Source: Pedobacter ginsengisoli
GTDB lineage: Bacteria; Bacteroidota; Bacteroidia; Sphingobacteriales; Sphingobacteriaceae
Direction: 5' to 3'
DNA: 64,000 nt
Assembly: GCF_002736205.1 (NCBI RefSeq)
Contig: NZ_CP024091.1
Coordinates: forward strand, 4,027,555-4,091,554
The stretch's first letter is position 1; every line of letters starts with the position of its first letter. Made by a program: the position numbers and the translations under genes. A model generated the notes under the pieces. It worked only from the letters and a program-made list of their open reading frames with translations. It made no database searches and was not told where the DNA came from. Below, piece by piece: positions 1,348 to 16,485 of this stretch.

Positions 1348-2685
1348 TTATTTAATAAGTAAAGCGGTCTTGCCTGAACTTGTTCTATATGGTTGATCTC
1401 GCTTTACATAAGTTATTTCTAGATTCAGATTCCTTTCGTCAAAAAATTTACTGGCTTCATCTACCTCAATTGAATCAGAAACAAAATGAATTTCAATCTT
1501 TCCTACTGAGATTTGTTTTACTTGAATAAATTTTGAATAATTAAAAATTTCGTGATGTCTTCCAAATATCAATCCTGTGAGATTAATCATTTTACCATTA
1601 TTATCCAATATGAATTCTCCTTCTCTGCCTTTTGTTATTTTGAAACTATTAAGAATTCCTTCATCCGTTTCAATTTCCGATATTCTATCTCCTGTATCAT
1701 ACCTTATTAAAGGTGAAGCAAAATTATAATAACTTGTGGCAATTAACCGATAATCATTTTCCTCTGAGTTTAGAGCTTCTGAAAAACCATAAGTTCCAAA
1801 AGGCTCGTACTTAAATCGTTCCTCTTTCTCATAAGCTAAAATTGCCCTTTCAGTATGTCCATACCAAGAGATGGTCTTAACATTAAAAATTTCTTCAATA
1901 ATTGCTCTATAATGCTCATGAGGATATTCAGAGCCCAAAAAAACCCCCCTAAGTCCTTTTTTTAACAAGGCTCCAAGTTCATTATTTTCATTTTTACAAT
2001 AAATAGCAAAATCATAAATTGAACTAGGATAGCCATGGAGATAGCTAATTGTATGTTTTTTTAGAATTCTTTTTAGTTGATCTGCAACCAATTTGTACTC
2101 CGCATATATATCGACCGCAAAATGATTCCTAACAACATCATATTCGATCGCTTTCCTTAAATCACTTCTTCCTCCAAACATCAATTTAAAATCAGACACT
2201 TTATAATTTAACTTGCCCCATACATGATGCATATGGGCCCATTCATGACCCATTGAACTTGGTTGTATGTAAAAACTAAAGGGAGTACCAGAGGATCCAC
2301 CAGTATTCACAATATATTTATCTGAAACGTATGAACTTCTGTCTTCAATGTCATATTCATTTAATATTGATTTTGATGTTAGAGGTATTTTTTGAATATC
2401 ATCAAATAATTTCAATTTACTAGGGTGAAATCCTTTACTATCATAGTAATTTTTATAAAACTTGGTATTAGAATAGCTAAATTCCGTTAAATCTTTTATT
2501 CTATTCAATATAAAGGTCTGCTTTTCCCTTGCTGAAAGTCTCTCAAACTTCTTTATTTCTACTGCTCTCTTTTTATAAATAGTGGCAAGTCCCGGCCTTA
2601 ACGAATAAGGAATTTTATTAACCAGCATTCCTATACTGGGTGGGATACATCTTAAATTTTCTTTAAGAAAAACGGCTATGCTCAT
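1348..2685 (-). CDS. CapK/PaaK-like adenylate-forming enzyme
   Basis: A 445-residue cytoplasmic protein of the phenylacetate-CoA ligase/CapK family. The phosphate-binding loop TGGSSGTPFSFY lies near residue 128, the ATP-binding motif RYDTGD near 328, and a C-terminal lysine occurs in SSGKTALLIK, so the adenylation machinery looks intact. Family members activate a carboxylate as an acyl-AMP and usually pass it to CoA; CapK homologues in capsule loci have no settled substrate. Its place between a glycosyltransferase and the bi-domain oxidoreductase suggests that it activates a carboxylic acid (an acyl group or possibly a uronic acid) for polysaccharide decoration, which is inference. No acyl-carrier protein or acyl-CoA dehydrogenase is visible nearby. 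Confidence 0.8.
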   Translation of the reverse strand: MSIAVFLKENLRCIPPSIGMLVNKIPYSLRPGLATIYKKRAVEIKKFERLSAREKQTFILNRIKDLTEFSYSNTKFYKNYYDSKGFHPSKLKLFDDIQKIPLTSKSILNEYDIEDRSSYVSDKYIVNTGGSSGTPFSFYIQPSSMGHEWAHMHHVWGKLNYKVSDFKLMFGGRSDLRKAIEYDVVRNHFAVDIYAEYKLVADQLKRILKKHTISYLHGYPSSIYDFAIYCKNENNELGALLKKGLRGVFLGSEYPHEHYRAIIEEIFNVKTISWYGHTERAILAYEKEERFKYEPFGTYGFSEALNSEENDYRLIATSYYNFASPLIRYDTGDRISEIETDEGILNSFKITKGREGEFILDNNGKMINLTGLIFGRHHEIFNYSKFIQVKQISVGKIEIHFVSDSIEVDEASKFFDERNLNLEITYVKRDQPYRTSSGKTALLIK

Positions 2686-2710: not shown

Positions 2711-3660
2711 TTAATGTATGGTCTTATATAATTCCATTACCTGATCTGCACTATTTTGAATAAAAACAGGCATTCGATTTTTATTTTCATATAGACAATC
2801 TAAAAAAGATTCTTTACTTGAATTTACGTAAATAAAACAACCTTCTGGGCGATCTACACAATCAGAAGCTATTACCTTTGTATTTAAATATAATGCTTCC
2901 TTAACCGATAACGAATCTCCATCAGATGTTGTTGCCCTTATAAATACATTTGACTTTTTTATTATTTCTACAAAAGAATGAGGTTCAGAAATAAATAGAA
3001 TATTGTCGCTAGAAGCAAAAGCTGAATACTGTTCCTTTAATTTTCCCGATGGATCTGAAATTAAAAGACATGAATTAGGTATTGTCACGAAAATATTGAG
3101 CAAAAAATCGATCCCATATAAATCATTTCCATTCTCATCAAGCACATAATTATGAGCATTGGTGCAAGCTATTATATCCTTCTCATTTATTTTAAGGCAA
3201 AGTAGTTCATTTATCTTATTTGAAAGTTCATACTCGCTTTCCATTGGTGGGATAAATGCTGATATAAGTTGTACTTTATTTCGGCTATTAATTTTTTTTA
3301 GAGCATTTCTGTAGCTATAATCGTTTAATACTAAATTGCAAGATGAAAATTTAAGAGTCATAACATCAAAGAAACTATTAAATGAATATTTTCCGTGAAA
3401 AGTTATTATGACTTTCTTATTCATACATCTAAATAAAAATGTAGTTAAAAGTCTAACTATTTTATTGCTAAAGTGAGTATGAATTATTTTTGCTTTTATT
3501 ATCTTACTGAAAGCTTCCCTCAACTTCTCCTTTTTATAATCAAAAAAGTCACATGGAACCTCCTTATTTAGCAATGTATAAACAAGTCTTGACAAATGAA
3601 CAGTCACCCCCCCAATGGAGGTGGCATTGTTCCGACTAACAATATCCTCTTATCCGTCAT
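2711..3660 (-). CDS. Glycosyltransferase (family 4-like), frameshifted in a G7 tract near its start
   Basis: The uninterrupted frame is 2711-3607 from a GTG, 298 residues beginning TVHLSRLVY. The real start is probably ATG at 3658-3660, directly after the upstream stop codon: it reads MTDKRILLVGTMPPPLGG, the classic N-terminus of a GT-B glycosyltransferase, and then hits TGA at 3604-3606. The two frames join exactly at seven G residues (3607-3613); eight G would give an intact 316-residue enzyme with the expected GGVTVHLSRL loop. The C-terminal half keeps a donor-site-like DGDSLSVKEALYLNTKVIAS. It would transfer a sugar from a nucleotide donor onto the lipid-linked repeat unit. It may be a true off-state, a pseudogene or a sequencing error; translation from the GTG would lack the sugar-nucleotide loop. 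Confidence 0.75.
3607..3613 (-). repeat. G7 homopolymer at the frameshift of the glycosyltransferase
   Basis: Seven consecutive C on the + strand (G on the coding strand) sit exactly where the N-terminal frame and the body frame of the glycosyltransferase meet. Gain of one G restores the full-length protein. Such tracts are slippage-prone, so the gene could switch, but a base-calling error is equally possible. Confidence 0.8.
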
Positions 3661-5106
3661 CTAGAATCCAATTAAAACCTGGTATTTAATAGATTCCCAT
3701 TCCTTAGCATCAATCGCTCCAGATAGCAATTTATTTACAAGGGAATTTGATAAATTTTCTCCGTGATTCAATTTGTAAATATTAAGAAATGCATATTCCT
3801 CCATTCCATAACTTAGAGCCTCCCACCTTAAGCTAGAAAAAATCTCATTACCTTTTCTATATATCAATGTATTATCGCTTGTAGGGATTTTTGTACTAAT
3901 ATCCCAAGAACCTCGTCCCTCGCTAAACTGTTTTAGACCAAGAGAGCCAACGGCAGAATTAACATCTGCATAATTCCATGCTCCTATACCCATTGCGTTT
4001 AAAGAAAAGGCCTTAATTCCAATCTTTTGATATAAGGAGGCCATTATATTCCGGCTACCAGCTGGAATTTCATACAACCAAAGAGCGGTAGTAGGCTTTT
4101 TAAGCTCATTAATTTTTTTTACGAACTCCATGCTACCAGAGTATACTTGTAAATACTCCAGTTTCTTTGCTAAAGGAATCGCATCGTAATTGCCTATTGT
4201 TGCAAAAAAAGGATTATTAATATTCTCTGATCTACACCAATCATATAATTCGCTTAGTGTTTTTACACTATTGCCTTTTGGCTCATCATAAGGATAGAGT
4301 AAAACATTTTGAGCTGGGATATTCAGATCGGCGAATATATTGGATACAACTTTATTCCATTTAAGAAAACTATCTTTCCACGAACTTGTTAAAACACTCT
4401 TTGTATTTTGATTATAACCAAGGTACAGTAAATAGTACTTAAATCTATTATTAGTTCCCTTCAAATACCCCCTTAACTTACTTAACCCTGCTTCACTAAT
4501 ATTCCCAACAGCGGGGAATAAGCCTGGAGGGATAACTAACACATTGGAGTTATGGCTAATTAAATCATCAACAATTTTTGATTTATTCCCCTTTGTCAAG
4601 AAGTTATAATCAAAATACGCCCATACATTCAAACTTAATGGATTTTGAAACTTAATATCAGATACTTTGATTTCTTTAGTTAGGATACAAGAGTCCTCGT
4701 CTGTATTTATCGTAATCTTTAAAGTCTCATTACCATATTTTACACCATAAAAACGAACTAAAAAATATTGGGTCTTGTTATAAGGTTGGAGTTCAGAACC
4801 CTCAACCGGAACCATTCTATCTAAAATATTTCTATTCTTATAGTCCGTCATAAGGGGTAAATAGTATATTTTCACACTTGCAAATTTTGAAAGTACATTT
4901 ATGCCCTCAACTCTTTTTCCCTTTAAATTATTTACAGCTAGAAGTCTATAATTGGAACCACTTAATAAGACTGGAATAACATCATTTAACTTAACTTTTT
5001 GGAGATTATCCAAACGGTTATTCCATGGATAGTACCAGTTGCTTTTTTGTGCAAACGAAGATTCAATAAAAAAGAAGCTACACAATAATAAAAGTATTTT
5101 TTTCAT
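3661..5106 (-). CDS. Secreted glycosidase-like protein of unassigned family
   Basis: I place the start at ATG 5104-5106 rather than the TTG 12 bases upstream, because it gives a clean signal peptide, MKKILLLLCSFFFIESSFAQ. The mature protein is about 460 residues. N-terminal beta-rich sequence is followed by a region that looks like a TIM-barrel hydrolase, with NVWAYFDYNF, LLYPYDEP and LWLYEIPAG; the acidic DEP and YE positions would suit catalytic residues. This resembles the DUF4091-type glycoside-hydrolase-like group, but I cannot assign a family. Sitting between the Wzy-like gene and the frameshifted glycosyltransferase, it may trim or remodel the exported polysaccharide in the periplasm or outside; that role is inferred. 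Confidence 0.6.
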   Translation of the reverse strand: MKKILLLLCSFFFIESSFAQKSNWYYPWNNRLDNLQKVKLNDVIPVLLSGSNYRLLAVNNLKGKRVEGINVLSKFASVKIYYLPLMTDYKNRNILDRMVPVEGSELQPYNKTQYFLVRFYGVKYGNETLKITINTDEDSCILTKEIKVSDIKFQNPLSLNVWAYFDYNFLTKGNKSKIVDDLISHNSNVLVIPPGLFPAVGNISEAGLSKLRGYLKGTNNRFKYYLLYLGYNQNTKSVLTSSWKDSFLKWNKVVSNIFADLNIPAQNVLLYPYDEPKGNSVKTLSELYDWCRSENINNPFFATIGNYDAIPLAKKLEYLQVYSGSMEFVKKINELKKPTTALWLYEIPAGSRNIMASLYQKIGIKAFSLNAMGIGAWNYADVNSAVGSLGLKQFSEGRGSWDISTKIPTSDNTLIYRKGNEIFSSLRWEALSYGMEEYAFLNIYKLNHGENLSNSLVNKLLSGAIDAKEWESIKYQVLIGF

Positions 5107-5123
5107 ATTATTTTTCAAAGTGG

Positions 5124-6467
5124 TTAACCCTTAATTACAAAATACATCCCAAGTAGTGACAGATATAAAAATAATGTTAAGAGAGCCAAATTTAATCTCA
5201 TAGTTTTAGTAGCTCCCAAATAAACATTCATACTGGCTATCAAAATTATTGGATTGATCGCCATAATCCTTCTGGTGTCTGCGTTTACTGAAGCGCCAAG
5301 AATTAGGATGAGTGCAATAATAAAAAGAACAAAAAGTCTTCTATCTATTAATGCTCTAAGCTTTGCGGAATAAAGAAGTAGCAATAATTGGGCCCAAATA
5401 AAAAACCAAAATAAAGCGGCTATACTCAATGGAATAAACCCTAATCCTTCCTTATCTAAACCTACATAAAATGGGAAAGGCAACGTTTGTGAAAACAGTC
5501 CCGCAGCTATGTGGCGAATCCCCCAAGGCAATTTCAAAAGAGACGCACCCAAAGAATCCCCTGAAGCGACATCTTTTGAATAACCAAGATACACATCTGA
5601 GGTTGTATTTAACATATTGAAGAAATTTCCAATTTGATTACTAATTGCTAAAATCGCCAGTAAAAAAATTGGAAGGACAAGAACAAACTTATATTTTGAA
5701 TCATTTTCTTCTAAATAAAGATATAAATAAGCGAATAGGAATATCAATGAAAATATACCATGTTCCGGGCGGAACAAAAACACTATTACCGATAAAGCCA
5801 AAAATAATGGAACTTTACTTAAGCTTTGCTTTGTGTAAAACAAATAGATCAATAATATAAAACAAAAACCAATAGGAACGTCTCTTACTAAAACGGCAGA
5901 GTAGAACAAAGAATAAGAAAGAAAGCCATATAATAAAGTAACAAAAAGTGCTTTTCTTTTATCAAAATAATGAGTGGCTATTATAAAAACATAAGGTAAA
6001 ATCATTGATGAAAAAAACACAATGATTAATTTTTGAACAATAATACTGTTCCCATCTATATGATTTGTAACAAAAGCAATCATTCCAGAAATTAAGGCAA
6101 AAGCTTTCCAATCTGCACAGACGAAATCAGTGAAAGAAGTCAAAATCACATTCCACATTGTTGGCAACTCTCCTAGCATCGAAGCGTAATTGTAAAAATG
6201 CACAGAGTCCTTTGCATAAAAATAATCAACAAGCGGGCTTGACACATATGAATAATTACACGCTATCGAATATATACTATAAATAAGAAAAAACAGATAA
6301 AAAACATTAACAGAGGTAGTTTTATACTTTTTTATGGTTGTGGAAATTATTAATCTTCCTGTGAAAATCCAGAAACATGCCCAAATAAAAATTGACAGCC
6401 TATGCTCTAGAAACATCACTAGAGAAAAAAATAAAACGGAAAGCACCAAAATCAAAGTTCTATTCAT
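5124..6467 (-). CDS. Multi-pass membrane protein, probable Wzy-type polymerase of module A
   Basis: 447 residues with roughly eleven hydrophobic segments and short loops; a larger loop around residues 75-110 contains the sequence YYAKDSVHFYNYASML. FLFRPEHGIF lies around residue 235. There is no sequence motif that fixes the function, but module A has a flippase (10011-11471) and needs a polymerase, and this is its only other polytopic protein. Wzy proteins join repeat units on the periplasmic face of the inner membrane. A GT-C or ArnT-like glycosyltransferase is an alternative. The ATG abuts the stop of the upstream GT4 gene, so the two are probably translationally coupled. Confidence 0.55.
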   Translation of the reverse strand: MNRTLILVLSVLFFSLVMFLEHRLSIFIWACFWIFTGRLIISTTIKKYKTTSVNVFYLFFLIYSIYSIACNYSYVSSPLVDYFYAKDSVHFYNYASMLGELPTMWNVILTSFTDFVCADWKAFALISGMIAFVTNHIDGNSIIVQKLIIVFFSSMILPYVFIIATHYFDKRKALFVTLLYGFLSYSLFYSAVLVRDVPIGFCFILLIYLFYTKQSLSKVPLFLALSVIVFLFRPEHGIFSLIFLFAYLYLYLEENDSKYKFVLVLPIFLLAILAISNQIGNFFNMLNTTSDVYLGYSKDVASGDSLGASLLKLPWGIRHIAAGLFSQTLPFPFYVGLDKEGLGFIPLSIAALFWFFIWAQLLLLLYSAKLRALIDRRLFVLFIIALILILGASVNADTRRIMAINPIILIASMNVYLGATKTMRLNLALLTLFLYLSLLGMYFVIKG

Positions 6468-7649
6468 CTACTGTTTTCTCAAATTTACAATCAAATTATG
6501 CGCCATAACCTTACTAGTAAAGCTACTTTTAAATTTCTTCAATGCATTCTGACCTAATTCCCTTCTAGCAGAATTATTAATTAATAGATATTTCATTTTC
6601 CCTTCTAGTTCATCCACATTAAATGAATCTACAATTGCACCTGTTAAACCATCTTTAACTGCCTCAAACACTCCACCCAAGTTCCCTGAAATTGATGGCA
6701 CTCCACATGCAGCCGCTTCTATATATACTAGACCAAAGGATTCTTCCAACCTACTTGGCAAGACAAAAAGGTCCGCAATAGCATAATATTTAGAAAGTGT
6801 TTCTCTATCTACACCGCCAACAAAATTGACACTATTGCTTATTCCTAAACTTTCTGCCTGTTTCTTCAAACTTTCAAGATAACATCCATCACCAACAATC
6901 AGGAGAAAAACGTCGGAAAGTTCACTTAAAATCCTTGAATAGGCATCTAACACCTTATCTTGCCCTTTCATTTGAATTAACCGGGAAGCAGAAAGAAGTA
7001 CTTTTTTACCTAAGGGTATCCCAAAAAAATTCTTTAATTCACTAATTTCATCTGGAGTTCTTACATAAAAGGTATTTTCATTTACCCCGTGCTGAACCAA
7101 AGCAATTTTATTTTTAAGTTCTGGCATAAACTTATTCCAAGTTTGTTTCTCATTTTCACTTACGGTAATCAAAAGTCTTTGTCTAGAAAATAATCGTTTT
7201 AATTTTCCACTTAAGCTAAAAAAGCGTATAAGCCTAGAAGGCTTGACAAAAAAAGAATTAATTTCATTTCCATGAAAAACACTAATAGACTTTGGAATTT
7301 CTTTCTTAAAGGACTGACTAAATACAGAAAATATTTTTTTTGCTCTACCATCGCTTAAAATAATAAAGTCATATTCTTTTATTCTTATAATTTTCTTTAT
7401 TAAAAAGAAAAACTGCAAAAAATGCAGCCCATTTCGAGGGATAAAATCAAAGACATTAATATCATAGGAGGATTTTAAGCGATTTTTGATAACGGAACTT
7501 TCTTGCAAATGATTATATGTTACGATGTCAACATTACATTGATTCGATGCTAGACCTATTGCCATATCATGAGCATAAACTCCGGCCCCTCCAATAATAG
7601 GAGGGAATTCGTATGTTATAATAAGTACATTCTGACTATTCATTTCCAT
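6468..7649 (-). CDS. Glycosyltransferase family 4
   Basis: A GT-B fold enzyme of about 393 residues. The N-terminus has the acceptor-domain loop ITYEFPPIIGGAGVYAHD, and the donor domain carries FGIPLGKKVLLSASRL and ESFGLVYIEAAACGVPSISG, the E-x7-E nucleotide-sugar site of GT4. A TTG six bases upstream is in frame, but ATG at 7647-7649 or 7641-7643 is more likely; both overlap the 3' end of the acyltransferase gene, as expected for coupled translation. It adds one sugar of the module A repeat unit on the cytoplasmic face; donor and linkage cannot be read from the sequence. Confidence 0.85.
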   Translation of the reverse strand: MEMNSQNVLIITYEFPPIIGGAGVYAHDMAIGLASNQCNVDIVTYNHLQESSVIKNRLKSSYDINVFDFIPRNGLHFLQFFFLIKKIIRIKEYDFIILSDGRAKKIFSVFSQSFKKEIPKSISVFHGNEINSFFVKPSRLIRFFSLSGKLKRLFSRQRLLITVSENEKQTWNKFMPELKNKIALVQHGVNENTFYVRTPDEISELKNFFGIPLGKKVLLSASRLIQMKGQDKVLDAYSRILSELSDVFLLIVGDGCYLESLKKQAESLGISNSVNFVGGVDRETLSKYYAIADLFVLPSRLEESFGLVYIEAAACGVPSISGNLGGVFEAVKDGLTGAIVDSFNVDELEGKMKYLLINNSARRELGQNALKKFKSSFTSKVMAHNLIVNLRKQ

Positions 7650-8208
7650 CTTCAACTAACCAAGCATTACAAACATAACCTTCTACACCTCGACTACTAC
7701 TAATTTCACAGGGGTTCCCTCTTACTAAAGAGAAATCTGGGACATCAGTTGTAACATACGTTCCTGGGGCAATCAAAACATTATTTCCGACCTTTATATT
7801 TCCCACAATAACCACATTACTTCCAATCCAAACATTATTCCCAATTTTAGGAACTCCTTTAAGCCTACCCCTACTTACCTGACCTATGACCACACCTGGA
7901 GATATATTAACATTATCACCTATATGAGTCCCTCCATTTATTATTATATTCCCAAAATGGCCGATATAGAATCCCTTTCCAATTTTGGCTGAAAAAAACT
8001 GAAAACCATATTTATAGCTATAATGTCTAACGATTATGTAAAAGAGCCAATACAGAGGATTTTTTTTAGACAAAGTGGACTTAATTCTATAGAAAAACAT
8101 AAATCTAAATCCTTCTACTAAAAAAAATGATTTTAAAAAAGTCCTTTTGTCAGTCTTTCCATAATAACGATAAAGATCTGATTTTATCAATTCAAAAACT
8201 CGTATCAT
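7636..8208 (-). CDS. Serine-acetyltransferase-like hexapeptide acyltransferase (WcaB-like)
   Basis: 190 residues. A helical N-terminal part of about 85 residues (DLYRYYGKTDKRTFLKSFF) is followed by left-handed beta-helix hexapeptide repeats, including GTHIGDNVNISPGVVIGQ, IGNNVWIGSNVVIVG and VGNNVLIAPGTYVTTDVP. This is the architecture of CysE-like proteins recruited to exopolysaccharide O-acetylation, such as the colanic-acid WcaB group. It probably transfers acetyl from acetyl-CoA to a repeat-unit sugar hydroxyl before flipping. A housekeeping CysE is unlikely because the gene is embedded in the glycosyltransferase operon and overlaps its neighbour. Confidence 0.8.
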   Translation of the reverse strand: MIRVFELIKSDLYRYYGKTDKRTFLKSFFLVEGFRFMFFYRIKSTLSKKNPLYWLFYIIVRHYSYKYGFQFFSAKIGKGFYIGHFGNIIINGGTHIGDNVNISPGVVIGQVSRGRLKGVPKIGNNVWIGSNVVIVGNIKVGNNVLIAPGTYVTTDVPDFSLVRGNPCEISSSRGVEGYVCNAWLVEDGNE

Positions 8209-8253
8209 ATTTTTAATTAAAGCATTATATTGATATTCAATTTGAATGTTATC

Positions 8254-9447
8254 CTATTTAAACAATTTTATAATCTTCCCAACAAATCGAGTTCTTAAGC
8301 TTGAAGCATGGCTTTCTTTTCCCGAAAAATTAACAGAATGCATCATCACATAGCAACGATCCAAGATATTAACTAAAGCATTCTTATCAATTTTAATTGT
8401 TTTGTAATCCAAAACAGAGGCCAGATTATTAAAAACCCAAGCATCTGATCTAACCATATAAACATCACTCATCTTGTTGCCTTGAATACTGACAACGGGA
8501 TAAAAATATTTCCCATTCCATCCACTGTCTATAATAAACTTGACTACCGATTCAATTACACGATCTATAGATTTAGGGTTATCTTTGAGAACACGATTTG
8601 CTAAAATTAAACCTGACAAGATTGAGCTAAATCCCCATAGATGAATGCCTCCACCAAAATCCTTAGGATTATTTGTATATGGAACTATCCCTTCTTGATC
8701 AAAAATATCAACTACATAATTTGCGGCATCCCTAATTAGTTTATCTTGCCTAAATGCCGGACATACCCTTTCAGCATATGAATGCATCTCTACCTGCTGC
8801 ATTTGGTGATAGTTATCAATTTTATCTTTTTGAGGAGATTTTATATCCGTTCTCTTTTGGTCATAATATGGCCAAAATCTACCTAAATATCTATCTGAAT
8901 TTAACAGATTTATATCCAAATACTTTACCATTCCATTATATATACAAATTAACTCACTATCATTAGTTATATTTAATATTCCAAGGTAGTATCCTAATGC
9001 CCCACAAACAAAACTGGTTCCATTATAAACCATTACATTAGACGTTGAATATGGAGCATACGGAATATAATATCCTTCGTCACCACAGTTTATTGCATAT
9101 TTCTTAATCCAGTTTATGGATTTGTCACAAGAATCCCTAACCTTATCATTAAACCCAAAAACCCGACCATATTCTACTGTGGCTAATAGTCCAATCATTT
9201 CTGGAGATGTACTTTCTCCCTTTTTGTGAAGCAAGCCAAAATTAAAATCATATCCAATATCATAACCTCCGTCCTCTTGTTGTATGGTGTATAATATCTC
9301 GAAAATATCATCCGCCCTAAACTTCCATTTAGAATCACTAGTGAATTCATAAAGCTTAATACAACCCAATAGACTTTGGTAAATTGTCTGGCTACACCAT
9401 TTCACAAATGGCGGGTTTAATATCGCCTTCTTTATAAGTTGTTTCAT
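8254..9447 (-). CDS. Unidentified protein, possibly an alpha/alpha-toroid polysaccharide enzyme
   Basis: I do not recognise a named family. The 397 residues have no signal peptide and look mainly helical, with recurrent short motifs of the kind seen in (alpha/alpha)6 toroid folds: QQEDGGYDIGYDFNFGL near residue 55, PEMIGLLATVEYG, GYYIPYAP and GGGIHLWGFSSILSGLILA. Such folds occur in polysaccharide lyases, epimerases and unsaturated-glucuronyl hydrolases. Without a secretion signal it would work in the cytoplasm, perhaps on a lipid-linked intermediate. The ATG overlaps the upstream acyltransferase stop by four bases (ATGA), so it belongs to the same biosynthetic operon. Confidence 0.5.
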   Translation of the reverse strand: MKQLIKKAILNPPFVKWCSQTIYQSLLGCIKLYEFTSDSKWKFRADDIFEILYTIQQEDGGYDIGYDFNFGLLHKKGESTSPEMIGLLATVEYGRVFGFNDKVRDSCDKSINWIKKYAINCGDEGYYIPYAPYSTSNVMVYNGTSFVCGALGYYLGILNITNDSELICIYNGMVKYLDINLLNSDRYLGRFWPYYDQKRTDIKSPQKDKIDNYHQMQQVEMHSYAERVCPAFRQDKLIRDAANYVVDIFDQEGIVPYTNNPKDFGGGIHLWGFSSILSGLILANRVLKDNPKSIDRVIESVVKFIIDSGWNGKYFYPVVSIQGNKMSDVYMVRSDAWVFNNLASVLDYKTIKIDKNALVNILDRCYVMMHSVNFSGKESHASSLRTRFVGKIIKLFK

Positions 9448-10004
9448 TTACAATATTTTTCTGATACTTTACCTATTATTCTACCTGGAATACCAACAAC
9501 GATTGAATCCTCTTCTATGTTTTTTGTTATTACAGACGATGCGGCTAACAAACATGATTTTCCAATTTTAACACCAGAAGTTATGGTAACCCCACTAGCG
9601 ATCCAAGAACCAAAACCAACTATGATAGCCTCACCTACTCCTGGGGCAAAACGAGCACTACCATCTTTAAAGGTATGGTTACTACTAATTATTCTAACAT
9701 ATGGCCCTATAAGCACCTGATCCTCAAGAGTTACCCCCCCTCTCAACCCGCTTATCCAAGACCCGTGACCTATATATACATCATTCCCAATATTAATGTT
9801 ATTTAGATGTTCGAGTTTAACTTGCAGGCCAACTTGAAAATTAGAACCACATTGTTTTAAAAAAGGTCTATACAGAAATCCCCTAATCATGCATCCGTAA
9901 GAATTTTCTGGGAACAACTGACCAAACAATTCAATAAATCTTAAAGGAAAGTATTTGAATGATAGAAGTAACCCAAAAATAAAAACTAATATTTTTTTTA
10001 TCAT
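9444..10004 (-). CDS. Hexapeptide (LbH) acyltransferase, WcaF/maltose-acetyltransferase type
   Basis: 186 residues. After a hydrophobic N-terminal stretch (KKILVFIFGLLLSFKYFPL) come the repeats of a left-handed beta-helix: INIGNDVYIGHGSWISG, EDQVLIGPYVRIISSNHTF and GVKIGKSCLLAASSVITKNI, then the typical C-terminal SIVVGIPGRIIGKV. The His in SSNHTF fits the catalytic histidine of this acetyltransferase group. It probably O-acetylates a sugar of module A. The coding strand contains a G7 tract (plus-strand C7 at 9734-9740) in frame, encoding part of RGGVT, a spot where slippage would inactivate the gene. Confidence 0.8.
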   Translation of the reverse strand: MIKKILVFIFGLLLSFKYFPLRFIELFGQLFPENSYGCMIRGFLYRPFLKQCGSNFQVGLQVKLEHLNNINIGNDVYIGHGSWISGLRGGVTLEDQVLIGPYVRIISSNHTFKDGSARFAPGVGEAIIVGFGSWIASGVTITSGVKIGKSCLLAASSVITKNIEEDSIVVGIPGRIIGKVSEKYCK

Positions 10005-10010
10005 GATGTA

Positions 10011-11471
10011 TTATTTTGATTTTATTAACGATCTTAATTCTCCGAACGAAAATTTATAATATTTGAAAACTATTATAAGTGAGCTCATTAGTATAATTAA
10101 TCGGAAAAGAAGATTAATATCCGCAACTGTAAAAATGCAAACAGCAATAACCACTAGAATAGCTTGACTAAATAAATAATCTCGATTTATCCCTATTTTG
10201 TTATTTATATATTTATTAATTAAATAAAAAAGTCCCACTTGGCCAATAAAAATAGAAATAGATTTACCTATAACAATTCCTATCAATTTATAAGTACTCA
10301 ACAAATAAACACTCCCCATTAAAGTGATGATAACTAGGCAACTATTAAGAAAGAAAGATTTACTAAGATTTTTAGCCAATAAGATCATACTATTTATATT
10401 CCCAATACAGGCAATATTGTATCCAATTAATAATACACAAAAGGACAAATCATAAATCCGTCCTTTAATGTGAAAAGTGTTTAAGATATAGGAAGAAAAA
10501 CACATTAAAATTACAGATATAACTAAATTTATAACAATAATTATGCGCCCAACCTTATTATAAGTTTGAATTAGAAGTTTTTCATCTCCTTGATGAATTA
10601 TTTTAGAAAATGATGCTAATAAAACTTGCCCAATTTTTAGCGGAATAAATCTTACTGTTTCGACTAATTGTATTATAATAAAGTATCTTCCTAGTTCTTT
10701 AACATTTAATATTTTTAAGACAAAGATTTGATCTATATTTTGATATAAAAACGTAATTATTGTCATTAAATGAATAAAAAGTGAAAATGACCAAAAACCC
10801 CTAGGAATAAAGAAACCAACAGAGTTTGAATTAAAATGCCTTCGAATCTTGAAGGTTCCAATAATAATCATTAACACACTTGACAGGATAATAATACTTG
10901 ATAGAAACATTATCAGCGAATCTTGATATTTCAAATTCAATATTGGTATTTTCAAGAAAATTAGGAGCAATATAATTCCTGTATTTAAAAAATTAGGCAG
11001 TTGAGTTATAAACGAAGCTGATTTATAATCTGCTTCCCCTTGCAAAAAATAAACCAAAATCTGCGCAACAATTACAGGCACCGACATTAATAATACATAT
11101 ATATTTTGGGATGACTTAATCTTATTATTCGTCAGATATTCAATAGACTGAGGGAATAACAACAAGACTAAAATGCAAATTAATAACAGCAACATGCATA
11201 CGGCAGAATAAAATGTCAAAAAAGAGAATCTATCCTTCTTTAGGTCTATTTTAGGAACAAGATTAGTTAAAACTGATGATCCACCGAAAACAAAAAAAGA
11301 AGTTATCAAATTAAAGAGAATCATTGTTAAGGCAAAATCAGCAACATATGATCCTGTTGGATCATAGTAAGTAAAAAGCCAATTTCGTAATATAGCAATT
11401 GGACCTCCAATGAAAGAAAATAACAATACCCAAAAAGCTCCCCTTTTTATTTCTTTTGTAATATTTGTCAT
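10011..11471 (-). CDS. wzx: Wzx-type oligosaccharide flippase of module A
   Basis: 486 residues with about fourteen predicted transmembrane segments and an N-terminal cytoplasmic start, TKEIKRGAFWVLLFSFIGG, typical of the polysaccharide-transport (MOP) superfamily. Wzx proteins move undecaprenyl-diphosphate-linked repeat units across the inner membrane. The gene sits between a GT4 gene and an acyltransferase with gaps of 0 and 6 bases. It is noticeably more A/T-rich than the flanking export genes, as is usual for the variable core of such loci. Family assignment is solid; the symbol denotes function only. Confidence 0.85.
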   Translation of the reverse strand: MTNITKEIKRGAFWVLLFSFIGGPIAILRNWLFTYYDPTGSYVADFALTMILFNLITSFFVFGGSSVLTNLVPKIDLKKDRFSFLTFYSAVCMLLLLICILVLLLFPQSIEYLTNNKIKSSQNIYVLLMSVPVIVAQILVYFLQGEADYKSASFITQLPNFLNTGIILLLIFLKIPILNLKYQDSLIMFLSSIIILSSVLMIIIGTFKIRRHFNSNSVGFFIPRGFWSFSLFIHLMTIITFLYQNIDQIFVLKILNVKELGRYFIIIQLVETVRFIPLKIGQVLLASFSKIIHQGDEKLLIQTYNKVGRIIIVINLVISVILMCFSSYILNTFHIKGRIYDLSFCVLLIGYNIACIGNINSMILLAKNLSKSFFLNSCLVIITLMGSVYLLSTYKLIGIVIGKSISIFIGQVGLFYLINKYINNKIGINRDYLFSQAILVVIAVCIFTVADINLLFRLIILMSSLIIVFKYYKFSFGELRSLIKSK

Positions 11472-12659
11472 TTACTCCAACTTTAACGTTTCATTTACCA
11501 TAGTATTCCAGCAAAAATGTTTTTCAATATATTCGATATTTTTGGCCCGCATATTTTCTTTAATGCTAGGATCTATCGCTATTAATGCTTGTATGGCATT
11601 TGATAATTCTATTGCAGAAAATTCGTTTACAACGATTCCATTATAATCGTTAATGACAATTTCATCGATGGCAGTTTTAAAGTCAGGATTCTTCCCAAAA
11701 CCAACTACTGGTGTTCCACAAGATAACGATTCAATAAGGACTTGTCCAAAAGTCTCAATTTTGGTCGGTAAAACAGTAAGTTCGGCCTTTGAATATAACA
11801 ATGGTAAATACTTTTTATGTGCTCCCAAGAAAAAAACTTTATTTTTCATTCCTTTACTCTGAACATACTGTTTTAAAAAAGGTAAATAAGGCCCATCACC
11901 CACAATATTTAATCTAACACCATTTAAATTTATAAAGCTATCTATTAATATTTCTAAGTTTTTCGCTGGAGCAATTCTTCCAACATATAGAACATACTTA
12001 TCCTTTATTAGAGGAATTTCATTCAGTACTTCCTCAGGATATTGCTGTACATCGAAAATAGTTCTATCTACACCTGGCTGAATAACATGAATTACTTTAC
12101 TCTTAATTCCTGTTTCTTCTAAAAGTTGTTTTTTCATCATCTTACTAAAAACAACACCAATTATTTTTGGGGATCCCATTAGGTTCCTATCAATACGCGA
12201 TAACGAATATCTGTCCAAAATTTTTAACCCCTTAAAAATAGTTCTCTTAAAAAAACGATAACTACTTAAGTTTGAATACAAGCCATCAACGTTTAAGTTA
12301 CTTGTAGTAGAAAAAATATGCTTAACCACCTTAACTCTATTACATCTTATAAGTCCAGCAGCAACAATCGAATTTCTAGACCAAATTTGGTCCGGATTAT
12401 ATGAATCTATTACTTTTTCAATTGCTATGGACGCTATATTTTTTATCCGTTTATGTAAAATATATGAAATTTTACTGCTCTCAAATGCGTACCTATAAAC
12501 TGGAATTCCATCAACATTTGGATATTCATAAGCTCCATCAAAAGCTAATATAGCAACCTCATAACCCTGCTCCTTTAAACTCTTGGCTATATACCTTAAA
12601 GATGTTTCTACACCCCCGACTTTTGGAAAATAATATAGGCTGACTAATAAAATTTTCAT
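11472..12659 (-). CDS. Glycosyltransferase family 4
   Basis: 395 residues, GT-B fold. The N-terminal loop PKVGGVETSLRYIAKSL and the donor-side YVGRIAPAKNLEILIDSF and ETFGQVLIESLSCGTPVVGF mark a GT4 retaining glycosyltransferase. It is the first glycosyltransferase after the sugar-nucleotide dehydrogenase in transcription order, so it could use the UDP-uronic acid made by that enzyme, but this is a guess from position. The 109 bases between this gene and the dehydrogenase gene are the largest gap inside the operon; I found no clear promoter in them. Confidence 0.85.
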   Translation of the reverse strand: MKILLVSLYYFPKVGGVETSLRYIAKSLKEQGYEVAILAFDGAYEYPNVDGIPVYRYAFESSKISYILHKRIKNIASIAIEKVIDSYNPDQIWSRNSIVAAGLIRCNRVKVVKHIFSTTSNLNVDGLYSNLSSYRFFKRTIFKGLKILDRYSLSRIDRNLMGSPKIIGVVFSKMMKKQLLEETGIKSKVIHVIQPGVDRTIFDVQQYPEEVLNEIPLIKDKYVLYVGRIAPAKNLEILIDSFINLNGVRLNIVGDGPYLPFLKQYVQSKGMKNKVFFLGAHKKYLPLLYSKAELTVLPTKIETFGQVLIESLSCGTPVVGFGKNPDFKTAIDEIVINDYNGIVVNEFSAIELSNAIQALIAIDPSIKENMRAKNIEYIEKHFCWNTMVNETLKLE

Positions 12660-12768
12660 ATTCCTTTTTTCCCATATAATACTACCACATGGATAAACAC
12701 CCTTTCGTAGTAACTTACATCACCAAAACGCTATAAATAAAGATTCAAGAGATAATATACTACTGAAA

Positions 12769-14070
12769 TTATAGCCTGCCGTCTACTATCGCTCTATCTA
12801 GGCACGCCTTTGTATCAAAAATTACCCCATTATCTCGTTTTATCTTGTTATAGTCAATTTTTAAAAAATCACTATGTGCAACAGCAACTATAATAGAATC
12901 ATAGATGTTTCCATCTATTAAACTATTTAAAATATCGATTCCATACTCGTGCTTAACCTCGTTAGCATCCGCCCAAGGATCGTAAACATCAACATCCAAT
13001 CCAAATTGAACTAGTTCATGATAAATGTCAACCACCCTTGTATTGCGTACATCGGGACAGTTTTCTTTGAAAGTAATTCCTAATATTAACGCTTTTGATC
13101 CTTTAATTTTATGGTCCTTCTGGATCATTAATTTGACTACTTTATCCGCGACAAAGGGGCCCATATTATCATTAACACGACGTCCCGATAAAATCACTTG
13201 GGGGTGATATCCTAATGACTGAGCTTTATGAGCCAGATAATAAGGATCAACTCCAATACAATGGCCACCTACCAATCCAGGTTGATATTTGAGAAAATTC
13301 CATTTAGTTCCCGCTGCATCTATTACATCATTAGTATCGATCCCAATTCTGTCAAAAATCAAAGACAATTCATTAACAAATGAAATGTTTACGTCTCGTT
13401 GTGCGTTTTCAATTGCCTTAGAAGCTTCTGCTACTTTGATACTAGGAGCTTTGTGTGTTCCAGCAGTTATTATAGATCCATATAAATCGTCAACAAGATT
13501 GGCAATCTCAATTGTTGAGCCAGAGGTGACCTTTTTAATCTTTGTCAATGTATTTATTTTATCGCCAGGATTTATTCTCTCTGGCGAATATCCCGCGAAA
13601 AAATCTTTATTGAATTTCAATCCTGAAACTCTTTCCAATACAGGAACACATTCATCTTCTGTACAACCTGGGTAAACAGTAGATTCATAGATAACTAAAT
13701 CTCCTATTTTCAAAATGCTCCCTAGCATCTCTGAAGCCTTAATCAATGGCTTCAAATCTGGTGCTTTAAATTGATCTATAGGCGTGGGTACAGTAACTAT
13801 AAATATGTTATAATTCCTCAAGTCTTCCTTGTTAAAAGAGAACGACAGACCAATACCTAATGTCTCCTTTTTTTTATTGATTGCGTTACTCAAGTCTTGA
13901 AGGTTTGCTTCTTTAGTTCGATCTTCTCCCTGACTAAGCTCATAAACTCTAGACTTGTTGATATCAAATCCCAAGACATCATAGTTTTTACTAAATTCTA
14001 TCGCTAGTGGCAATCCCACATATCCTAAGCCAATAACGGCAATTTTTGAACTACGAACAGTTATTTGCAT
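12769..14070 (-). CDS. UDP-N-acetylhexosamine 6-dehydrogenase (TviB/WbpO type)
   Basis: 433 residues of the UDP-glucose/GDP-mannose dehydrogenase family. The NAD motif is [38 protein letters not shown] and the catalytic cysteine loop [15 protein letters not shown] are intact; the segment [14 protein letters not shown] is characteristic of the Vi-antigen TviB/WbpO branch, which oxidises UDP-GlcNAc or UDP-GalNAc to the uronic acid. The module A polysaccharide therefore probably contains an N-acetylhexosaminuronic acid. A UDP-ManNAc dehydrogenase (WecC) is less likely, and no 2-epimerase is in the window. The gene follows wzc by 12 bases. Confidence 0.85.
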
Positions 14071-14082
14071 TGTTGATTAATA

Positions 14083-16485
14083 TTAAAATCGTTTAATTAT
14101 ATCTTTAAAAATAGCCTTGATTGTTCTATTACTATATTGGTTATCATCAGAATAATAACCGTAACCATATCCATATCCATATCCATATCCATATCCATGG
14201 CTTCCTCCCAATTTTACCCCATTTAGAATTATATTGAGCTTAGGAAATTTTTTATTGCGAAATAATACATTCATATTACTTATCTGATTCTTAAAGGTTA
14301 CATTTTGTCTAACTAAATAAAATGTAGCATCTGCTAACTTGGCAAGAATCTGTGCATCTGTAACTAACCCAACTGGTGGGGTATCAATAAATACTTCATC
14401 AAAGTTTTCCTTTAAGTAATTTATCAAAATATCGATTTCAGGTTGAATCAACAACTCAGATGGGTTAGGCGGAATTGGACCAGATCCTATTACGAATAAA
14501 TTCGAATTTATTCCAGAAGGCTGAATTATATCTTCTATTTCGGCCTTCCCAATTAAATAATTGCTTAAGCCAGTTTTATTTGCTAAATTAAGATACTTAC
14601 TTACCTTGGGTTTACGTAAATCCAACTCTAACAGTACTGTTTTTCTATCACTAATAGCTAAAGCAGCCGCAATGTTAGTAGAGACAAAACTCTTCCCTTC
14701 CCCAGACATACTAGATGTCAATAGTGTGACACGTCCCTTACCTGAAGGATTTTGTTTTCCGTGCAAGAATTGCATATTAGTACGAATTGCGCGAAACTGT
14801 TCTGCAATTGCTTTACGACTATGTGCATTGACAACAATCGATTCGGTCCCTTCATTGTACAAAATTTCCCCCAAGATAGGTGCTTCTGTTAATTTATTTA
14901 TATCAGATGAACTTTCTATTTTATTGCTCAATAAATCCTTGGCGTATAAATAACCAATAGGCAAAATAACTCCTAGAATCAGTGCAGTTAAAAACACAAT
15001 TTTTCGCTTAGGATTAATGGGAGTTTTTGATGCAAATGCAGGATCTACAGTTCGACTATCCGCAACCGTAGAGGCATAAGATAACACAGCTTCTTCCTTT
15101 TTTTGTAACAAATAAAGATATAGTGTTTCCTTTATTGATTGTTGCCGTTTAATACTAATAAATTGACGTTCTTGACCAGGTAATCGTTTGATAGAATTTT
15201 GATATTGATCATTATAGCCTTGGAGTTCCCTTTTGGTATTAAGTAGTGAATTTGAGATATTTTCTACTGTTGAAAGAATTCCTGCTCTAGTAGTTTCAAT
15301 TTGCTTCTCTATTGGCCCTAACAATGGATTCCCGGGTTGAGTGGTGGCCAATAATTTATCATGCTTGAGTTGCAAGTCACTCAATTGAGTGACTTGGCCT
15401 AACAATACAGGATCATTAATCCCCATAATACTAGGCAATTTCTCTCCTGCAGAATTAGATGTCACATACCTTTGAATATCTTTAACAACACTTATTTGCA
15501 ATTCAACTTCATTAATCTTAGCATCATTTGACTTAACATTTTCCAAATACAATTGGGCGTCACTAGTTAGATCTGTTAATCCTCTACTACTTTTGAAACC
15601 TTCCACATCTTTTTCCACATCATTAAGCTCCCCGCTAATAAGCTTCAACCTCTCATCAATAAATACCATGGTACTTTGGGTAGTTTTATTTTTATCTGCT
15701 AGCGAAGCTTCATTATATACCTGGATCAAAGTATTCAAAATATCTTTCCCTCTTTTAGGAACAGTTGTTTCAAAGCCTAAATTTAGTACAGTTGACTGCT
15801 TGCTAGATAAAGCAACATTCAGAAAGCCTAAATAACGATCCACAACAAGTTGCGGATCATAAATGGTTATATTTAGTTCTTTCTTCTTCCACCCCTTAAA
15901 ATTCTGATTAGTTGATATTTTATAAATACCTAGCGAGTTACGTTGCAACTCATTTAAGGTTCCGGTTATTCTTTTTCCAGTCTCTTGTTCTTCCAATAAA
16001 TAAGTATCCTTAGATGGGAAAGTTAAAGCCAATACCTTACCATACCACAAACTATCCATTTGAACTACACCAATATCCACTGGCTTAATAGAATATGCAT
16101 CGGAATTGATCACGCGCCCCTCTGCTTTGTAACCAATACTAAGATTCAGCCTATCTACAACTTTACGCATTAACGTTTTAGATTTAAGGATTTCAATCTC
16201 ATTATCAACCACCTTTGAGCTACCGAAAAGATCTAACTCATTTAATAAATCCCCCCCACTAGGCACACCACCTTTTTTGTCGTCCTTAATAAGTAAAGTA
16301 CTATTTACTACATAAACAGGCTCAGCATATCGCAAATAAAAGAATGCGAGCACTAGAAATAGCAATATGCTCAACATAAATACAGGCCAATGAAAAATAT
16401 ATTTGTTTAGAGTTTCTCTGATATTAATTGTCTGCTCATTCTCAGTAATAACGGAATTACCGTTGACATTATCTTCACTATTCAT
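14083..16485 (-). CDS. wzc: Wzc-type tyrosine-protein kinase/polysaccharide co-polymerase
   Basis: 800 residues. TM1 is at about 32-52 (VFMLSILLFLVLAFFYL), a periplasmic Wzz-like domain with coiled-coil follows, and TM2 is at about 492-513. The cytoplasmic BY-kinase has Walker A SGEGKSF near 596, Walker A' LLELDLRKP near 620 and Walker B FIDTPPVGLVTDAQ near 702. The C-terminus holds a tyrosine cluster of seven Gly-Tyr pairs plus one more Tyr, then SDDNQYSNRT. Autophosphorylation of this tail controls chain length and export with the Wza partner encoded just upstream; the CpsB-like phosphatase at 17476 is the likely counter-enzyme. A plus-strand C7 tract (16251-16257) lies in frame near the N-terminus. 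Confidence 0.9.
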   Translation of the reverse strand: MNSEDNVNGNSVITENEQTINIRETLNKYIFHWPVFMLSILLFLVLAFFYLRYAEPVYVVNSTLLIKDDKKGGVPSGGDLLNELDLFGSSKVVDNEIEILKSKTLMRKVVDRLNLSIGYKAEGRVINSDAYSIKPVDIGVVQMDSLWYGKVLALTFPSKDTYLLEEQETGKRITGTLNELQRNSLGIYKISTNQNFKGWKKKELNITIYDPQLVVDRYLGFLNVALSSKQSTVLNLGFETTVPKRGKDILNTLIQVYNEASLADKNKTTQSTMVFIDERLKLISGELNDVEKDVEGFKSSRGLTDLTSDAQLYLENVKSNDAKINEVELQISVVKDIQRYVTSNSAGEKLPSIMGINDPVLLGQVTQLSDLQLKHDKLLATTQPGNPLLGPIEKQIETTRAGILSTVENISNSLLNTKRELQGYNDQYQNSIKRLPGQERQFISIKRQQSIKETLYLYLLQKKEEAVLSYASTVADSRTVDPAFASKTPINPKRKIVFLTALILGVILPIGYLYAKDLLSNKIESSSDINKLTEAPILGEILYNEGTESIVVNAHSRKAIAEQFRAIRTNMQFLHGKQNPSGKGRVTLLTSSMSGEGKSFVSTNIAAALAISDRKTVLLELDLRKPKVSKYLNLANKTGLSNYLIGKAEIEDIIQPSGINSNLFVIGSGPIPPNPSELLIQPEIDILINYLKENFDEVFIDTPPVGLVTDAQILAKLADATFYLVRQNVTFKNQISNMNVLFRNKKFPKLNIILNGVKLGGSHGYGYGYGYGYGYGYYSDDNQYSNRTIKAIFKDIIKRF
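14165..14198 (-). repeat. Hexanucleotide tandem repeat encoding the Gly-Tyr tail of Wzc
   Basis: On the + strand CCATAT occurs five times in perfect tandem, followed by CCAT. On the coding strand this is GGATAT, that is Gly-Tyr, and the tail continues with synonymous GGTTAC and GGTTAT. Because the unit is six bases, gain or loss of copies changes the number of phosphorylatable tyrosines without changing frame. Confidence 0.9.

Follow-up and report, generated by a model that had tools for sequence, protein, structure and literature searches.

In long-read assemblies, the insertions and deletions that remain are mostly errors in homopolymer length (PMC8812927; PMC12007338; PMC9262707), and genes can be fragmented by homopolymer deletions (PMC12007338). 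With Nanopore R10.4 reads, accuracy at homopolymer lengths 8 and 9 depends on the base, especially with C (PMC9262707). Homopolymer indel rates climb with tract length (PMC5854121), and switching of glycosylation genes by polyG tracts is known, as in the pgl genes of Neisseria (PMC6959607). The gene described here lies in a window of 64,000 nucleotides from Pedobacter ginsengisoli (contig NZ_CP024091.1, positions 4,027,555 to 4,091,554) and can be compared with both systems. Like the Neisseria pgl genes, it is a glycosyltransferase-type gene with a coding G tract that sets its reading frame, but its tract is not conserved among homologues, and the genome lacks a group of surface genes with long tracts. 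Like the genes affected by long-read homopolymer errors (PMC8812927, PMC12007338), it is an otherwise intact gene frameshifted by the loss of one base, in an assembly where the same loss recurs; it differs in that long G runs are mainly hit here, whereas A/T runs are nearly all fine. We consider it likely that a tract of eight G was undercalled as seven in the consensus of this single-contig assembly, and that the gene is intact in the organism.

The gene occupies positions 2711–3660 on the minus strand and switches frame within a G7 tract at 3607–3613 (C7 on the plus strand; G000:C1:4031161-4031167). The N-terminal frame (3604–3660, minus strand) encodes MTDKRILLVGTMPPPLGG, which corresponds to the first strand and glycine-rich loop of a GT-B N-domain, and ends in a TGA immediately 3′ of the seven G. 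The minus-strand sequence reads ATG ACG ... CCA TTG GGG GGG TGA CTG TTC. The body frame (2711–3607, minus strand) starts with the GTG at 3607 and encodes the remaining 298 amino acids of the GT-B glycosyltransferase without an internal stop. The G run arises because both glycines at this site are coded GGG and are followed by GTG. With eight G at the tract, the two frames become a single 316-amino-acid frame that is colinear with ~80 homologues. The frame break at G7 is truly present in the deposited sequence, and the sequence-only reading, which had placed the meeting point of the two frames within the seven G, is correct to the base. Its proposal that one extra G restores a GT-B N-terminus is borne out by aligning the joined protein with four homologues in its bacterial family: no gap falls at the junction, and residues G17, G18, and V19 do not vary. 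The remainder of the gene is undamaged, as had also been suggested: the body contains no further frameshift or stop and retains the residues that are invariant across 43 homologues.

The four same-family homologues, each from a different genome, share 29–39% identity with the joined protein. Finding these and further relatives took the joined protein and, after it, an alignment, as a sequence-only search with the body alone returned no close relatives. From a species-level genome collection 80 homologous loci were kept, with identities up to 52%. Within the genus there were only two weak matches apart from the gene itself, and this patchy distribution suggests that the gene is probably dispensable. 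The predicted model of the body (pLDDT 94.4) has a GT-B fold, and its Foldseek matches are GT4 enzymes and related GT-B proteins (HepE, MshA, BshA; E about 1e-9 to 1e-7). The model begins almost directly at the first helix, so the part lost through the frameshift would be the first strand and glycine-rich loop, as judged from the fold. The protein also has profile matches to the BshA structures 2jjm and 3mbo. In contrast with these enzymes, it shares only ~10–14% identity with them and on its own falls below the Pfam gathering scores for glycosyltransferases (15.4 bits versus 27). Three glycosyltransferase models are each matched by one of the five aligned members, with E values of 6e-4 to 5e-5; an NCBIfam search returned no family for the protein. 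At the EX7E motif of GT4/GT-B enzymes, Asp replaces the first Glu to give DX7E; D229 and E237 (body numbering) do not vary among 43 sequences.

Downstream of the gene lies a PaaK/CapK-like adenylate-forming enzyme (1348–2685, minus strand), which weakly matches models of PaaK and F390 synthetase. Upstream is a 485-amino-acid protein (3661–5118, minus strand) that, judged by eye, is similar to the C-terminal portion of the protein located before the homologue in locus L070. The gene content of the following region (5124–16485, minus strand) is that of an exopolysaccharide cluster, with two GT4 glycosyltransferases, two hexapeptide acetyltransferases, a flippase, a UDP-sugar dehydrogenase, and a Wzc-type tyrosine kinase. 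Like GT4/GT-B enzymes, the gene sits in a polysaccharide cluster, and it would encode a GT-B (GT4-like) glycosyltransferase belonging to this exopolysaccharide cluster. A search of the first 20 kb of the window against Rfam gave no matches.

The sequence-only reading raised the possibility of a switchable enzyme. In its favor are the position of the tract, close to the beginning of a surface-polysaccharide glycosyltransferase gene, and the precedent of polyG-switched glycosylation genes. On this explanation a mixed population of G7 and G8 cells would turn the enzyme on and off and so vary the polysaccharide, and tract length does set the reading frame here, as it does in contingency genes. However, the tract is not kept at this site in homologues: in 76 of them, the longest G run at the PPxGGV site is 2 (50 sequences), 4 (22), or 5 (4), a sample in which all members were chosen to have an open frame of >200 amino acids from the site onward and in which broken homologues are under-sampled because the PPPxGGV motif was one of two search patterns. 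Because none of these homologues exceeds 5 G at the site, there is no conserved contingency tract. Nor is there, across the 5.37-Mb genome, a collection of surface genes with long G tracts: the genome has 34 exact G7 tracts, four G8, and one G9, so that runs of at least eight G number five, with at most two of them within genes. Finally, unrelated genes in the genome are likewise one G short, and these share no surface or antigen theme. Phase variation is accordingly very unlikely, and the proposed switch is not supported.

At least four further genes break at a G7 tract, with the shift in the same direction. The first is a ccsBA-type gene (G000:C1:240083; L036:3001), which is split at the tract into a ResB half and a cytochrome-c-assembly half. 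In the closest relative found, with 92% identity, ccsBA is a single frame of 1110 amino acids that reads KGGPELLK at the site (AAG GGT GGT CCT). The second encodes a GH20 hexosaminidase with a PA14 domain (G000:C1:12350; L035:3001), in which the frame change at G7 removes a conserved EGGGGYTL tail that is read in 7/7 hexosaminidase homologues. The third encodes a membrane protein (G000:C1:2352996; L048) that is colinear and gap-free with three homologues only when the tract has eight G. The fourth is an RHS-type protein gene (G000:C1:4115570; L060), whose frames are joined by 8 or 5 G alike. For three of these four genes (ccsBA, the hexosaminidase, and the membrane protein), comparison with relatives thus indicates that exactly one G is missing and that eight are needed. 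Including the glycosyltransferase, like indels affect five unrelated genes at G7, each joined by one more G, along with one gene at a G5 and one at a T5. The G5 is one base short at G000:C1:3217565 (L188:17565), where coding is continuous on both sides (SPW / GDEPATDD). The T5 is one base short in a restriction-modification-like gene (L041:3083), ~75 bases after an in-frame G7. The large ccsBA-type gene is present only in some members of the genus.

These breaks were identified by classifying tracts with a script and checking the broken ones by eye; the membrane protein tract was scored intact by the script and found to be broken on inspection. A G7 tract by itself is unremarkable, because most such tracts are harmless within intact genes: ~29 of them lie inside frames that are open across them. 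As controls, we applied the same script to the first 30 G tracts of length seven or more in each of two genomes from the same genus, G012 and G072 (60 tracts). Every coding tract that the script scored in these relatives was intact, including 13 frames with 8–10 G, and the sole flagged case (L146) proved to be the murG/murC boundary. For genes that need at least eight G, the counts are 1 intact and 5 broken in P. ginsengisoli versus 13 and 0 in the two controls (Fisher p = 0.0005). If a short gene with a C8 tract is counted, they become 2 and 5 versus 13 and 0 (Fisher p = 0.0014). That tract is carried by an ORF for a short Cys-rich peptide (GFYLGSPGSPTMASGCGTCTQDTCPPPPQWSVSTE) at L037:3001. 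A point against an undercall is that a G8 is read correctly in YidD.

The same one-G-short break in at least four unrelated genes, together with its absence from the two relatives, makes an assembly error the most likely explanation, and the data favor this part of the earlier proposal that the split marks an off-state, a pseudogene, or an error, while the off-state of a switch gains no support. The organism would then carry an intact glycosyltransferase gene with eight G, of which the assembly reports seven, and the apparent split would be one instance of a one-base undercall that recurs through the assembly, mostly in long G runs. We infer a sequencing or consensus step as the cause. In 1 Mb of long ORFs of this genome, sense runs of 4, 5, 6, 7, and 8 G number 1296, 230, 34, 11, and 0, which would fit some true eights having been recorded as seven. 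A point against an undercall is that it would need to act chiefly on G/C, because long runs of A or T nearly always stay in frame, with about 510 intact runs of at least seven A or T versus one clear break, an A9, in 1.27 Mb scanned. The coding-frame scans covered three 400-kb stretches of the genome. As a counterpoint to an undercall, the affected genes could be dispensable.

We also considered whether G8 tracts are depleted genome-wide, as a further sign of undercalling, and this sign is not clear. The ratio of G8 to G7 is 0.12 in the whole genome versus a median of 0.15 in the genus (49 genomes tallied), so G8 is not strikingly depleted overall, a comparison that is diluted because several of the runs of at least eight G in this genome fall outside genes.

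An alternative is that the strain truly has seven G and that the glycosyltransferase was recently switched off by an ordinary slippage mutation, outside any switch. The intact remainder of the gene is what a young mutation would leave, indel rates rise with homopolymer length, and the patchy, probably dispensable gene could be lost. This explanation would nonetheless require that one G was lost separately in each of at least five unrelated genes, which share no theme, despite intact MutS and MutL, and one relative keeps G9 and even G10 tracts in frame. We regard it as unlikely, though less so than phase variation. With both MutS and MutL intact there is no sign of a mutator strain, and this possibility was rejected.

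A G7 tract that is real could also be bridged during expression. In this case ribosomes would slip by −1 on G GGG GGG before the TGA, or RNA polymerase would slip, and some full-length enzyme would be made. The heptamer stands directly before the stop, lies in the right frame, and fits the X XXY YYZ pattern of slippery sites, and the shift required is −1. However, no stimulatory downstream structure is predicted, as the folding of the region is not stronger than that of shuffled sequence (z = −1.0, from a model that does not include pseudoknots), and conservation of the heptamer was not found in homologues. Strong slippage at G7 would also harm the ~29 genes of this genome that carry the tract in frame. 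Recoding at the glycosyltransferase is thus extremely improbable. A broader form of the idea, in which seven G is the true length of these tracts, the bacterium tolerates −1 frameshifts at long runs of G through transcriptional or ribosomal slippage, and several split genes including the glycosyltransferase and ccsBA yield some full-length protein, is no more credible.

With an undercall as the preferred explanation, the break is probably not a feature of the organism, and in this assembly a split at seven G calls for read support before a gene is labelled a pseudogene or a switch. Should reads confirm G7, a biological cause would have to be sought for the loss of one G in five unrelated genes of a mismatch-repair-proficient strain, and recoding could then be tested. 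Two other frame changes were seen at homopolymers. At G000:C1:1299995, an A9 stands between a long frame and a nitrite-reductase-like [2Fe-2S] segment, which 8 or 11 A would join; the A9 break among the scanned A/T runs may be one base too long. At G000:C1:4680866, the frame changes at a G6 and is joined by 5 or 8 G. In the control genome G012, loci L105 and L125 have G10 tracts in apparently intact coding frames, and these are better candidates for length variation than the G7 tract of the glycosyltransferase.
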